Source: Butyrivibrio sp. (GTDB taxonomy: Bacteria > Bacillota > Clostridia > Lachnospirales > Lachnospiraceae). Taken from it: 50,896 nucleotides of DNA. The DNA is taken from positions 1 to 50,896 of the forward strand of contig JAFZQT010000141.1 in the NCBI GenBank assembly GCA_017620235.1, written 5' to 3'. Position numbers and translations under genes: made by a program. This document shows positions 18,982 to 27,964 of this stretch, one piece after another; position 1 is the first letter of the stretch; every line of letters begins with the position of its first letter. The notes below the pieces were generated by a model. It did not search any database. It was given only the letters and a program-made list of their open reading frames with translations, and was not told the DNA's origin.

Positions 18982-19539
18982 TTATACATTTGCTCTATTT
19001 TTTCTACTCCACTCCTCAAAAGTCAGTACATTCACGTACTCCACGCGAAGCTCTCCCAGCATCACAACTCTGGTCATATGATTCACATGATGAAGTTTGA
19101 AACCACACTTTTCCTGTACCTTTTTTGACCGATCATTCCCCTCAAAATAAGCACAAAAAACACGGCTAAGATTTAGATTCTCAAAGCCATGTCTTAATAA
19201 TTCCTGCGCCGCTTCCGTCGCAATGCCTTTCCCCCAAAAAGGATAGCCTACCCAATAACCAAGTTCCGCCTCATCGGCACCTATCGGACGCTCGGGACTT
19301 CCATCCAAAGTAAGCCCTATGCTTCCAATGATCTTTCTCCCAAGCTCCTTTAGGCAGATAGCATACACCTCATCTCTTGCAAAAACAGTCCTTATTATAG
19401 CTTTGCTGTATGCTTCGTCCTTATGAGGCGGCCACCCCGCCGGAGGTCCTATCCTTTCATCGCTGGCATACTTGTACAGATCAGCCGCGTCACTACTTTT
19501 CCATTTTCTTAGGATCAATCTTTCCGTTTCCAGTACCAT
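18982..19539 (-). CDS. GNAT acetyltransferase, RimJ/RimL type
   Basis: A 185-residue N-acetyltransferase opening with the typical VLETERLILRKW, then the acetyl-CoA-binding region ELGYWVGYPFWGKGIATEAA near residue 95, and FENLNLSRVFCAYFEGNDRSKKVQEKCGF. Members acetylate ribosomal protein N termini or small amines; the substrate here is unknown. I start it at 19539, where AAGG lies just upstream; the frame continues up to 19569 without a site. It overlaps the 3' end of the EAL gene by 47 bases, which ties the two in one transcript. Confidence 0.85.
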   Translation of the reverse strand: MVLETERLILRKWKSSDAADLYKYASDERIGPPAGWPPHKDEAYSKAIIRTVFARDEVYAICLKELGRKIIGSIGLTLDGSPERPIGADEAELGYWVGYPFWGKGIATEAAQELLRHGFENLNLSRVFCAYFEGNDRSKKVQEKCGFKLHHVNHMTRVVMLGELRVEYVNVLTFEEWSRKNRANV

Positions 19540-21430
19540 TTGCCTTATGAACCAGTCCTTTTTGCGCATTTAAAAATTCAATATAGTCATTCTCAGGAAC
19601 AGGTCTCGAATAATAAAATCCCTGAAGATACTCAACACCATTATCAATAAGTATTCTTGCCTGTTCAAGTGTCTCTACACCTTCTGCAAGCACGTGAAGT
19701 CCGTTTTTCTTCATAAAATCTATTGTATGCTTGAGCACATTAAGTTTCTCGGGATTATCCGGACTGAGACAATTCCAGATAAACTCCCTGTCCATCTTTA
19801 TAAGAACATAATCCATGTCCAGAACTTCCAAAAGATTGGAATCTCCCGCTCCAAAATCATCCATCGAGAAGGTAAAACCTTGCTCTCTCATCTTCTTAAA
19901 GTTCTCTTTAAACGTCGCATCGCCTGTTATATGGGATGTATCGGTAATCTCAAAGTTGATAAAGTTAGGTGGAATGTGATATTTTTCCATCTTCCTGAAC
20001 AATCTTTCATGAGTATGTGCATCAACCGCGTCATTCCCCGACAGATTAACCTCAATCGTCTTGATTCCATAACTTAACAGATTCTCTCTTGCGATAAACG
20101 AGCATACTTTCTCAAATACAAGATCGTCAATTTCCTGAACCAGTCCACACCTCTCGGCAATAGGGATGAAATCCTCGGGTGATATATATTTATCGCCATC
20201 ATTTCTGCGCAGCCTTACAAGAGCTTCCGCAGATGAAAAAGAACCTTCTTTAACACTGAGTATCGGCTGATAATAAACGTCGAAGCTCTTGTCCTTCACA
20301 GCCTGTCTCACAACATCCTCTATGGTATTCCTGTAGACCATCTTGTCGACTATGTTTTCATCAATCACAATATTGGGCGAAGACTGCGTATAAACATATT
20401 CTCCGGACACATATGTAAGGATCTGCATAGCTTTATCAAGATCTTTTGCAATACGCGGAGCTTCAACAACCGAAAACGTGAGCCTGTAGTTGCCTGCCCC
20501 TATGCCTTTATACAAGTTTATCGTTGACATAAAACGCTCGACGATATCAGCTTTTTTGGCTATAAAGCTAAGCGTATTCCAACTCGAAAGATACGCACCG
20601 AGCTGATAATCGGAAAGTGCAAAATCCGCAACTTTCTCCTGCTCTGCTTCAAGAGCTTTTCGCGCCGAATCGGTGAAAAGAATATTCTTCTCAATAAAAA
20701 TAACAGACATTATGAAAAATGTTTTTGGCTGAGCAAAGCGCTCTGCAAGCATTGCAATGAACGCATCTTTGTTCATTACACCGGGAATACTCTTTTCATA
20801 ATAATCTTTGGGATTTTCGATAAAATTATAAATGATGACAGCCGTAAGTACGATTGCCATGGAAGATATCTGCATGCCCTTTCTGGCAATCTGGAAAACA
20901 AGCGTTGCGCACCAGACAATATGGGTAAAAACGATAGTTACAAAAACTTCCCTTTTTGCCCTGCCATTATAAACAACAGCCAGTACAGCCGCTGCAAGCA
21001 AATATAGAATTCCTATGACATAGCATATGGTCAAAAGGATATTGCTCGACGTTCCACCAAATAAAGCATTGGACGCTACTATTAGCAATACGCCTACAGC
21101 CGCGGGAATTGCGCAGAGAGCAGTTTTTTTACCGGATATCCCCCTCTTTATCGTAAATCTGGAATAAGTGTACAGACAAAGCGAAAAGATTACAGCAAGC
21201 AAAGTGCACAGATACAGTCCACGTGCCAGACCTTGCAGCCATGAATGTGAATCATTCGGATATACGAATGCCCAATATTCAATCATTTCAACAGCGATAT
21301 TTAAAGCAGACAACACTAAGAAGAGACAGAACATACGTGTCGTGGAAAGCTGTGGTATGCTCTTTCTCATATAGATTAGCATTAGTATTCCAAGAACTAA
21401 AATTGCAATAATCAGTGTACGTATTTCCAT
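19493..21430 (-). CDS. Membrane-bound EAL-domain cyclic di-GMP phosphodiesterase
   Basis: A 645-residue protein. About seven hydrophobic segments lie in residues 1-215 (7TM-type sensor region). Residues 220-365 resemble a GGDEF fold without a GGDEF motif, so it is a degenerate cyclase domain. Residues 375-625 are an EAL domain with intact catalytic motifs: SSAEALVRL, EVNLSG, FEITDTS, MDDFGAG, IKMDREF, AEGVET and LQGFYYSRP. It should therefore degrade c-di-GMP to pGpG in response to a membrane signal. A probable c-di-GMP riboswitch lies about 3 kb away (24656-24719). Confidence 0.9.
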   Translation of the reverse strand: MEIRTLIIAILVLGILMLIYMRKSIPQLSTTRMFCLFLVLSALNIAVEMIEYWAFVYPNDSHSWLQGLARGLYLCTLLAVIFSLCLYTYSRFTIKRGISGKKTALCAIPAAVGVLLIVASNALFGGTSSNILLTICYVIGILYLLAAAVLAVVYNGRAKREVFVTIVFTHIVWCATLVFQIARKGMQISSMAIVLTAVIIYNFIENPKDYYEKSIPGVMNKDAFIAMLAERFAQPKTFFIMSVIFIEKNILFTDSARKALEAEQEKVADFALSDYQLGAYLSSWNTLSFIAKKADIVERFMSTINLYKGIGAGNYRLTFSVVEAPRIAKDLDKAMQILTYVSGEYVYTQSSPNIVIDENIVDKMVYRNTIEDVVRQAVKDKSFDVYYQPILSVKEGSFSSAEALVRLRRNDGDKYISPEDFIPIAERCGLVQEIDDLVFEKVCSFIARENLLSYGIKTIEVNLSGNDAVDAHTHERLFRKMEKYHIPPNFINFEITDTSHITGDATFKENFKKMREQGFTFSMDDFGAGDSNLLEVLDMDYVLIKMDREFIWNCLSPDNPEKLNVLKHTIDFMKKNGLHVLAEGVETLEQARILIDNGVEYLQGFYYSRPVPENDYIEFLNAQKGLVHKANGTGNGKIDPKKMEK

Positions 21431-23161: not shown

Positions 23162-24637
23162 TTACATTGCAAAAGCAACTGTTCCTAAAAATTCTGTGTT
23201 TATCTGAACTTTACCGTTTGTTACTACTGCATCATATGAATGAACCTCACCTGTAACCGTTCTTACATATACTGATATTGTCTTTCCTTCATAAGATTTA
23301 TCTAGAGAAAATGTGTATTTAGCAGGTGTTTGAAGCTTTGTAAGGCTTACTCCTGCGGCATATGCTCTGATATAGAGAGAACCTTCAACCGGAGTTTTTC
23401 CGGACTCTGTTATTACTGTATTAAGAGCCTGTGCTATTTTATCAAATCCGTAGATTGAATCTCCGTTTCTGTCAAGAGCAGGAACAATTGTTGCTGTTAT
23501 CTTTGATGAATAACCCTTAGGAGCACTTGCAGAACTCAGATCAACAACAACATCCATTAACTTTCCGTTTGAATCTTTTACTGCTACAGTAGCTGAACCT
23601 GAATTATTGGATACAGCTGCAAAATAATCGTTTGATATATCAGATTTGTAAACATTAGCATAGTCTGACGTGGTTGTTACATATGATTCTGACGAATTAT
23701 TGGCATCTGATGATGCACTACTCTTTGTACCGGAAGACTCTGAGTCCGATGATACGCTACTGCTATTATTTGTATCAGAAGACGCTGTGTCTGATGATGC
23801 ACTACTATTATTTGTATCAGAAGACACTGTGTCTGATGAAGAATTTGTACCGTTTGTAATTATAGCTTTACCATTATATACATAGCCTCCTTCTGCTGTA
23901 TCTACAATTCTTCCTACTTCGCTAAAAAAAATATCTGTTCCATAATAACCCTGATTAAGAATTGAACCATCAGTAGGTAATGAAATATAACTTTCATTAA
24001 TGGTAACTGTTCCACCAACTGCAACTATAGGACACTGGGTTCCTACGGAAGATGCCTTAGCCTCAGCTGTAACATTTGAATTGTTGATAACAATATTATG
24101 ATTTCCGTATTCACCCATAGCATGAGAAGATATCTGTTCATCATTACCGGCTGCAATAGTATCGGTACTTGTTACATTTGAATCAGTAATAATAACATTT
24201 CCCTCTGTTCCTTTACCGTCTTTGCCACCGTTTATACCATCAGCTGAAACAGTAGAATCTATTATCTTCACATCTCCATCAGCTGAAATAGAACCGCTTG
24301 TAGTAATGTTAGCATTATCAATTGTTAAATCGGCATCGGTTGAAGGATCAGATGTACTTACTTCGATGTTTCCGGAAACTGTAACAGGATTATTATTTGT
24401 TGTAATAGTAATATTATCATTAGCCACGACGTTACCATTTACGTTATCTGTCAAAGTAAGTTTGCTTTCGTCCGAATTCCAGGTAAAGCCTTCGCCGCTT
24501 TCAGTACCATCATTAAATGAATTGGATACTTCACCAACATACCCTGATGCTCCAGCATAAACGGTTATCGGAGAGCCGATAAGGCTTACTACAACAAGCC
24601 CACTCATAATTTTTGCTGCTACTAAATATCCTTTCAT
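23162..24637 (-). CDS. Secreted adhesin-like repeat protein behind a c-di-GMP riboswitch
   Basis: A 491-residue protein with a signal peptide (cleavage likely after VYAG). Residues 40-260 are rich in Asn, Thr, Ile and Val with repeated hydrophobic-turn units (TITTNNNPVTVSGNIEV, VIITDSNVTS), as in beta-helical or carbohydrate-binding surface proteins. Residues 265-335 are a Ser/Asp/Asn linker of about 14-residue repeats (SSDTNNSSASSDTASS). The C-terminal 140 residues form a globular domain ending in FLGTVAFAM. No LPxTG or membrane anchor is seen, so it is secreted or attached non-covalently. GGAGG precedes the ATG and the riboswitch lies just upstream. The exact ligand is unknown. Confidence 0.8.
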   Translation of the reverse strand: MKGYLVAAKIMSGLVVVSLIGSPITVYAGASGYVGEVSNSFNDGTESGEGFTWNSDESKLTLTDNVNGNVVANDNITITTNNNPVTVSGNIEVSTSDPSTDADLTIDNANITTSGSISADGDVKIIDSTVSADGINGGKDGKGTEGNVIITDSNVTSTDTIAAGNDEQISSHAMGEYGNHNIVINNSNVTAEAKASSVGTQCPIVAVGGTVTINESYISLPTDGSILNQGYYGTDIFFSEVGRIVDTAEGGYVYNGKAIITNGTNSSSDTVSSDTNNSSASSDTASSDTNNSSSVSSDSESSGTKSSASSDANNSSESYVTTTSDYANVYKSDISNDYFAAVSNNSGSATVAVKDSNGKLMDVVVDLSSASAPKGYSSKITATIVPALDRNGDSIYGFDKIAQALNTVITESGKTPVEGSLYIRAYAAGVSLTKLQTPAKYTFSLDKSYEGKTISVYVRTVTGEVHSYDAVVTNGKVQINTEFLGTVAFAM

Positions 24638-24655
24638 AAAATCCTCCTCATAATA

Positions 24656-24719
24656 TATCTGGCTGTCTCATTTAGACACTGTAGCTTAGCGTCACCGGAT
24701 TACTACGAATTTGCCAATA
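24656..24719 (-). promoter_or_regulatory. Probable class I cyclic di-GMP riboswitch (GEMM)
   Basis: On the minus strand the leader has the conserved elements in order. TATTGGC pairs with GCCA-G-ATA to close the structure. GGCAAA is followed by a small hairpin capped with the GNRA tetraloop GTAA. Next come GACGCTAAGCTACAG (consensus GACGCAAAGC) and GTCT-N5-AGAC, then AGCCAGAT. The first hairpin has one T-C mismatch. GAGGAGG begins 7 bases beyond the closing helix, so control of translation is plausible. A TATACT -10 box lies at 24727-24732, putting the RNA start right at the aptamer. Confidence 0.75.
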
Positions 24720-24726
24720 CATTAAC

Positions 24727-24732
24727 AGTATA
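24727..24732 (-). promoter_or_regulatory. -10 box for the riboswitch-controlled gene
   Basis: TATACT on the minus strand, about 8 bases before the first aptamer nucleotide. The matching -35 is weak (T-rich). The position agrees with transcription starting at the 5' edge of the riboswitch. Confidence 0.45.
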
Positions 24733-24764
24733 ACATAAATTATACTTACAAAAATATGATAATA

Positions 24765-25574
24765 TCAGCAATAGGAAATCCCCATTAATATATCTTTGAA
24801 CATTTCTTTTATTCCTTTAATATCCAAAGGATTATCACTTGTTTCATATGTAAGAATCAGATTCTTTCCCGGATATATGCCGTTTTTTCTATATTCATCA
24901 AGCTTATTCAGACACCCTCTTCGATACTCTTTATTTTCTAAAAGTCCAAAATGCTCCATATATATTTCTTCTCTCGTCTTAACTTTAAGCAATGTAAAAT
25001 CCGGATATCTAACTATACCGCAATCGATGACCAGCGGCTTTTCATAATGATACGGTATCCCCAGATCATAGAGCATATCCGCCAATATAGCTTCTGACTT
25101 AGACCTTACTTTTTCGCCTCTGCGAGTGTCATATTTGATGTTTTCCGGCATGTATGGATTTGAACGGAAACTTTGCGACTGCCATTCTTTGACATAAAGA
25201 TAATCAGGAATAATATATGGTGTGACAAGATTTTGTCTGTCTGATGATAGATTAGTGAAGATTGATTCGGAATTATTTCCTTTAAAACGCTTTGTGAACT
25301 TCTCTATATTATCCAGTTCTTTTCTTGCTTTCTTGAGAAAATGCTTGTTGTATGCTTTCTGTGCCAAGCTCTTTGCAATATTTATATTTTTCATCGAAAT
25401 ATACTCTTCTGATAGCTTCTTATAATCAGTCACTTTATAATAGCGTATTTGATTATCTGATCTACTTATCCTGAGCTTCCCCTCCGGAAATTTCTTTTCA
25501 TCTTTTTCTGCAGCTTTTATAGCATTCTTTAGTAGAATCTGCCGTTGCTCCAATCGTTGAATTATCTTATGCAT
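24765..25574 (-). CDS. PD-(D/E)XK nuclease-like protein of unknown function
   Basis: A 269-residue protein. Residues 1-110 are charged and helical (coiled-coil-like, many Lys/Glu). From residue 155 the pattern SKSEAILADMLYDLGIPYHYE, then RYPDFTLL and then YMEHFGLL with a later Lys fits a PD-(D/E)XK nuclease core: E, PD, and E-x-hydrophobic-G as metal ligands. This is pattern recognition, not proof of catalysis. GAGGA precedes the ATG. No methylase or partner gene is adjacent, which argues against a simple restriction system. Downstream is the riboswitch gene; upstream is the palindrome array. Confidence 0.65.
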   Translation of the reverse strand: MHKIIQRLEQRQILLKNAIKAAEKDEKKFPEGKLRISRSDNQIRYYKVTDYKKLSEEYISMKNINIAKSLAQKAYNKHFLKKARKELDNIEKFTKRFKGNNSESIFTNLSSDRQNLVTPYIIPDYLYVKEWQSQSFRSNPYMPENIKYDTRRGEKVRSKSEAILADMLYDLGIPYHYEKPLVIDCGIVRYPDFTLLKVKTREEIYMEHFGLLENKEYRRGCLNKLDEYRKNGIYPGKNLILTYETSDNPLDIKGIKEMFKDILMGISYC

Positions 25575-27546: not shown

Positions 27547-27964
27547 ATTTGTATCCCAATCAAACCGCCACAGTTTTATGTGCAAGCACAAAACTGCATT
27601 TCATATCGCATTATGCAATTTCGCGATATACGGATTACTCCGCGCTTCGCGCTTTCGCAATCCTACGTCCATTCGGAAATCGTCGTACTCACTGCGTTCG
27701 TACTCCTTTTTCCCTCATGTCCGTTATGTCATTTCATAACCACAGTTTTATGTGCAAGCACGAAACTGCATTTCTTATCGCATTATGCAAGTTCGCGATA
27801 TACGGATTACTCCGCGCTTCGCGCTCTCGCAATCCTACGTCCATTCGGAAATCGTCGTACTCACTGCGTTCGTACTCCTTTTTCCCTCATGTCCGTTATG
27901 TCATTTCATAACCACAGTTTTCCGTGCAAGCACGAAAACTGTGGTTACTCATGACATATATCGC
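27547..27964. other. Gene-free spacer filled by a tandem repeat
   Basis: 418 bases between the MATE start and the argS stop. Nearly all of it is the repeat at 27568-27946. Open frames across it shift between copies because the unit length is not a multiple of 3, so they are not genes. I see no separate promoter for the MATE gene outside the repeat. Confidence 0.8.
27568..27946. repeat. 172-bp tandem repeat, two full copies plus a partial third
   Basis: Units start at 27568, 27740 and 27912, exactly 172 bases apart, and are nearly identical. Each begins with a hairpin of the form CAGTTTT-N2-GTGC-AA-GCAC-N-AAACTG. In the partial third copy this becomes a nearly perfect palindrome (CCACAGTTTT to AAAACTGTGG) that closes the array. 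The body contains CG-rich inverted segments (CCGCGCTTCGCGC) unlike the flanking DNA. Confidence 0.9.

Follow-up and report, generated by a model that had tools for sequence, protein, structure and literature searches.

The described systems closest to the element considered here are the class I c-di-GMP riboswitches (GEMM-I; RF01051), such as Vc2 and Vc1. We number positions after Vc2, as derived from excerpts of PMC3764141; the other papers are likewise cited from excerpts. In this class A47 stacks between the guanines of the ligand, and it is described as conserved across all class I riboswitches (PMC9049102). In Vc1 of Vibrio cholerae, both A39U (equivalent to A47U) and C104G (a change at C92) abolished c-di-GMP binding, as judged by equilibrium dialysis (PMC4744006). 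An A39T reporter was insensitive to depletion of c-di-GMP and, in this fusion, about as active as the wild type, and the A47U equivalent lowered the activity of a plasmid reporter with GbpA protein unchanged (PMC4744006); the effects of an A47U-type change on expression therefore vary. Ligand choice is known to shift with changes at the contacts 20 and 92: a G20A/C92U variant binds c-di-AMP, and A20 marks the cGAMP class (GEMM-Ib) of Geobacter, which has the same fold (PMC7288161). Finally, Bc2 of Bacillus thuringiensis, which precedes a collagen adhesin gene, joins a GEMM-I aptamer to a terminator and acts as an ON switch (PMC4933901). A search of the open-licence literature for riboswitches, Butyrivibrio and c-di-GMP found only work on a LytTR system, and among the matches listed for riboswitch loss in that literature nothing concerned the present case.

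The locus lies on a 50,896-nucleotide contig of Butyrivibrio sp. (the whole stretch analysed, hereafter the window). On the minus strand, positions 24651..24725 matched RF01051 over the full length of the model (1-87), with 32.5 bits and an E-value of 7.5e-5 (301 bases given, 24560-24860; 4227 families), or 1.6e-4 when scaled to the whole genome. A first-pass annotation had called this a probable c-di-GMP-I riboswitch and proposed this covariance comparison as a check. The match is significant but falls under the gathering score of 35; when the entire window was scanned with gathering scores as cut-offs, two Clostridiales-1 RNAs and a tRNA were listed, with RF01051 absent. The c-di-GMP-II model (RF01786, accession per the excerpted PMC7288161) was absent from the matches listed in 24560-24860 at E-values up to 10. 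The pattern GGCAAAN{12,20}GACGCWAAG occurred once in the window and in none of 100 shuffles. The RF01051 match and the alignment to intact orthologous aptamers at the same place (see below) show the element to be homologous to the family in both sequence and location, and its origin from a class I c-di-GMP riboswitch is supported.

The motifs named in the first-pass annotation are all present: GGCAAA (24715-24710), a hairpin with a GUAA loop (P2, 24694..24709), the GACGCTAAGC stretch (24693-24684), a short P3 hairpin formed by GUCU and AGAC (24665..24677, from sequence and folding), AGCC, a TATACT box (24732-24727) and a GAGGAGG site (24649-24643). Some of the structure read into them has to be revised. 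The supposed closing helix of TATTGGC with GCCAGATA is not part of the GEMM fold, in which the model pairs the GC of GGC with the GC of GACGC and assigns the GCC strand to P3. Nor is the short second hairpin unusual, as had been thought: with the number of bases from the GCAAA box to the match end as a proxy for P3 length, 15 of 86 Butyrivibrio entries, the window included, are as short or shorter. The proposed use of TATACT as a promoter found no support in a scan, which returned a single promoter-like site, a different one, where 1.7 were expected in shuffles. By eye, P1 could still pair as UAAU/AUUA. P2 keeps its GUAA loop, and four of its six pairs are standard, compared with five or six in the four orthologues with intact aptamers; model alignment and orthologue comparison place a lineage-specific U-C mismatch where all four have G-C. 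The fold energy of the aptamer was unremarkable (z -0.97 and -1.11 versus shuffles), and its lowest-energy fold is not the GEMM fold. For the 133-nt leader as a whole, z was -0.08, no better than shuffles, and a GEMM-like fold came to -3.8 versus -21.0 kcal/mol for the best fold, a comparison that says little, as these energies omit ligand and tertiary contacts.

Compared with Vc2 and Vc1, the window copy retains the order of elements, the GNRA hairpin, G20, the C22-G45 and G21-C46 pairs and the position in a leader, but differs in U47, U92, a mismatched P2, a missing terminator and a sub-gathering score. The GACGCT noted in place of GACGCA was read correctly and is important; it corresponds to U47 (24688 in the model alignment). 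We surveyed position 47 in 110 fetched entries (109 matches), of which 106 fitted the search pattern. It was A in 105 of these, the sole U being that of the window, and A by eye in the four unparsed entries. The same base change at the stacking adenine was made in Vc1 A39U, although there it is a laboratory mutation in an otherwise intact leader (PMC4744006, excerpts), whereas U47 here is natural and accompanied by loss of the platform. The C92 equivalent is also U (24655); 99 of 108 entries have C at this position and six, including the window, have U. Since U92 occurs in five other entries, it need not be disabling on its own. G20, in contrast to the A20 of the cGAMP class, is kept (24715).

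We then compared the leaders of orthologous genes. Full-length orthologues of the downstream protein were found in six of the 78 other genomes of the genus searched (76-82% identical); G090 had orthologue fragments, and five more genomes gave weak C-terminal matches. G036 shares the window neighbourhood (ArgS, MATE, the gene, amylase, EAL and GNAT, in stretches of about 20 kb), G098 and G065 have the same neighbour genes with extra DNA between, and in G026, G025 and G024 the gene is located elsewhere in a non-syntenic setting. Four of the leaders, those of G026, G025, G098 and G065 (proteins 76-80% identical to that of the window), carry aptamers scoring 55.2, 55.2, 53.0 and 53.4 bits, respectively; the window copy is 83% identical over 60 nt to the first two, at the same place before the gene. 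Downstream of each of the four aptamers lies a stem of 11-15 pairs that leads into a run of U's, with energies of -14.6 to -18.2 kcal/mol and z of -4.8 to -5.2, and in each case 0 of 200 shuffles were as good. A mechanical terminator scan of L112, the sole orthologue scanned, was empty, so that the assignment of these hairpins as terminators is based on folding. In all four, pairing is possible between AGACAGCCAGUU of the aptamer and the terminator's 5' strand (-10.7 to -10.8 kcal/mol), a candidate antiterminator, and this pairing was the predicted fold before the 3' terminator strand is made in three of the four, G025 excepted. The four leaders are therefore predicted to be OFF switches, in which ligand binding would protect the aptamer and allow the terminator to form. 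They share the aptamer-terminator arrangement of Bc2 but would not have its ON logic, and the likeness would extend to control of a surface protein if the orthologues' protein is surface-related (PMC4933901, excerpts). The leaders of syntenic G036 and non-syntenic G024 gave no GEMM match at E-values up to 10. By eye, that of G036 keeps CTTTACAACAGG, AATGAG and AGTTAAAG in the same order as 5' of the G065 aptamer, which argues that the same leader was lost there. In G090, an intact aptamer of 57.5 bits (L234, G090:C90, 647-721) appears by eye to be joined directly to the interior of the orthologous gene, which would reflect a deletion or a misassembly.

The window copy lacks the terminator of this arrangement. 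From the CCAG of the aptamer core to the ATG there are 21 nt (24638..24658, including the GAGGAGG site), versus 84-86 nt in the four orthologues, and no expression platform of their kind is joined to the aptamer. The first-pass annotation had already noted that no terminator is visible, and our scan found none in the leader (fold of the 21-nt join, z 0.25). The aptamer itself has also changed. Over a 57-nt core, the window copy has seven private substitutions and the four intact copies 0, 1, 0 and 0. By parsimony, 7 of 15 core changes fall on the window branch, which makes up 10% of the gene-tree length (P 4e-4; 0.018 if its share were 20%); supports in this tree were 39-100, the inner ones being partly weak (39, 58, 86). 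Against G026, the nearest aptamer-bearing orthologue, the window differs at 9/57 core positions (15.8%) and 23/204 four-fold sites (11.3%), a small excess that points to lack of constraint rather than acceleration. In the five non-sister pairs of intact copies, the core differs by 3.5-10.5% versus 18.7-29.4% at four-fold sites, and in the sister pair G098-G065 by 0/57 versus 24/242. The aptamer is thus conserved in the intact lineages and, changing at a near-neutral rate, looks unconstrained in that of the window.

These results favour, with good though incomplete confidence, the reading of the element as a relict, a class I c-di-GMP riboswitch in the course of being lost. The ancestor would presumably have had a GEMM-I aptamer followed by a terminator hairpin, as in the four orthologous leaders, with AGACAGCCAGUU pairing to the terminator 5' strand until ligand binding freed the terminator and turned the gene off. 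The lineage of the window lacks 63-65 nt between the aptamer core and the start codon, and with them the terminator and the end of the ligand pocket (C92), and its aptamer has point changes that include A47U and the P2 mismatch. The remnant is predicted neither to bind c-di-GMP nor to control anything. As changes of the A47U and C92G type abolish binding in the excerpted Vc1 work and the platform is gone, the simplest reading is that control has been lost and that the downstream protein would now be made constitutively, independently of c-di-GMP. GGCAAA, the GNRA loop and the P3 pairing are still recognisable, which speaks for either a recent loss or some residual constraint.

The first-pass annotation took the missing terminator to favour translational control, and a riboswitch that still works, having moved from termination to control through the ribosome site or the start codon, is the strongest alternative, although we consider it improbable. 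The distance from the end of the aptamer core to GAGGAGG is 9 nt, and the free leader folds into an alternative structure, involving the P3 strands, in which two AUG bases out of three are paired. However, A47 and C92 are both U, neither the leader nor the join shows any fold signal, the aptamer is evolving at close to the neutral rate, and such an arrangement is absent from all six orthologues. Given the two pocket changes, the near-neutral rate and the disappearance of the orthologues' terminator, its absence is better read as loss than as a sign of a working translational switch.

Considerably less probable again is that the aptamer (G20, U47, U92) has been retuned to another nucleotide, acting as a terminator-free switch beside the ribosome site that responds to a weaker or different nucleotide signal without the class-conserved stacking adenine. 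The known retuning by changes at 20 and 92 lends this some plausibility, but no expression platform was recognised and no second U47 copy was seen among the fetched copies. A wider search for a conserved U47 subclass gave 43 exact pattern matches in 41 of 299 genomes of the family, of which by eye only that of the window resembles a GEMM hairpin, and we rejected such a subclass. Chance resemblance to GEMM-I, which the sub-gathering score and ordinary fold energy might suggest, is rejected on grounds of orthology and retains next to no credence, given the identity to the G026 and G025 aptamers, the genome-wide E-value and an aptamer at this place in four of six orthologous leaders.

Reading the element as a decaying relict, we see one leader before the same gene that is intact in four species, half-decayed in the window and absent in two species. 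Such a series allows the presumed course of riboswitch loss (platform, pocket, whole aptamer) to be put to the test, and it is a warning that an RNA in which the GEMM motif can still be recognised is not necessarily a functional sensor of c-di-GMP. The decayed state is known from one genome (144 contigs, 86% complete). This genome groups with Butyrivibrio, and the named relatives of the downstream protein are from Butyrivibrio at six of six loci.

As had been proposed, the leader precedes a gene for a probably secreted protein. The gene (23162..24637, minus strand) encodes 491 amino acids with a signal-peptide-like N-terminus and a Ser/Asn-rich linker, both seen by eye, and belongs to no known family: searches of Pfam (E 0.001), NCBIfam (0.01) and PDB chains (E 1) found nothing, and seven orthologues scanned against Pfam at E 1 gave chance-level matches alone (best 0.041). 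Of the description 'secreted adhesin-like', secretion is therefore likely, but the adhesin part is unproved. The genome has 22 GGDEF and 12 EAL matches and four GEMM-I copies over the cut-off, not counting that of the window, which indicates that c-di-GMP signalling is present. An EAL-domain gene, c-di-GMP phosphodiesterase-like, lies near the leader (19493..21430, minus strand; PF00563, E 2.4e-55). A second weak match in the same genome (L035 1417-1490, G000:C81; 29 bits, below the cut-off) has an odd 3' half and is possibly another relict.

On the upstream side, the leaders of G098 and G090 become similar to the window at the DNA level from 24739, and that of G065 from 24726. For the ORF immediately upstream (24765-25574), tblastn at E 1e-10 found nothing in the 20-kb regions around the orthologous genes of the six genomes, and, judging from these boundaries, an upstream insertion may have removed the old promoter. 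The 3' part of this ORF (24793-24853) recurs with 82-89% DNA identity in G035, G016, G033 and contig C1 of the window genome, and with 79% in G073.

Several other GEMM-I copies deserve mention. A20 instead of G20 was found in 9 of 86 Butyrivibrio entries and 11 of 108 overall (L044, L046, L047, L049, L050, L055 (two), L072 and L074, and the L115 and L116 leaders), and in two orthologues of the present leader, G098 and G065; the G026, G025 and G090 copies have G20. In the open-licence literature, nothing listed on A20 copies in Lachnospiraceae concerned this case. A cGAMP-making (Hypr) GGDEF enzyme might account for A20 copies; a survey of GGDEF domains in G065 (43 places, 30 loci, 28 parsed domains) found 26 with D and two with N at the signature position, and none of the cGAMP-making type with Ser, which we take to be the Hypr mark. 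Copies with GGTAAA or AGTAAA together with CACAAAG (L037, L038, L044, L045, L067, L083, L089, L094 and L235) carry C22U together with G45A, so that positions 22 and 45 still pair, and L079 and L055b have the second change without the first. A tandem pair of Clostridiales-1 RNAs lies between the MATE and ArgS genes of the window (27622-27963; 95.1 and 68.3 bits). Lastly, the aptamer at 1501 in L004 starts, by eye, 125 nt before an Hsp70-like ORF, and a terminator-like hairpin seems to overlap its 3' end, a layout that would point to an ON switch.
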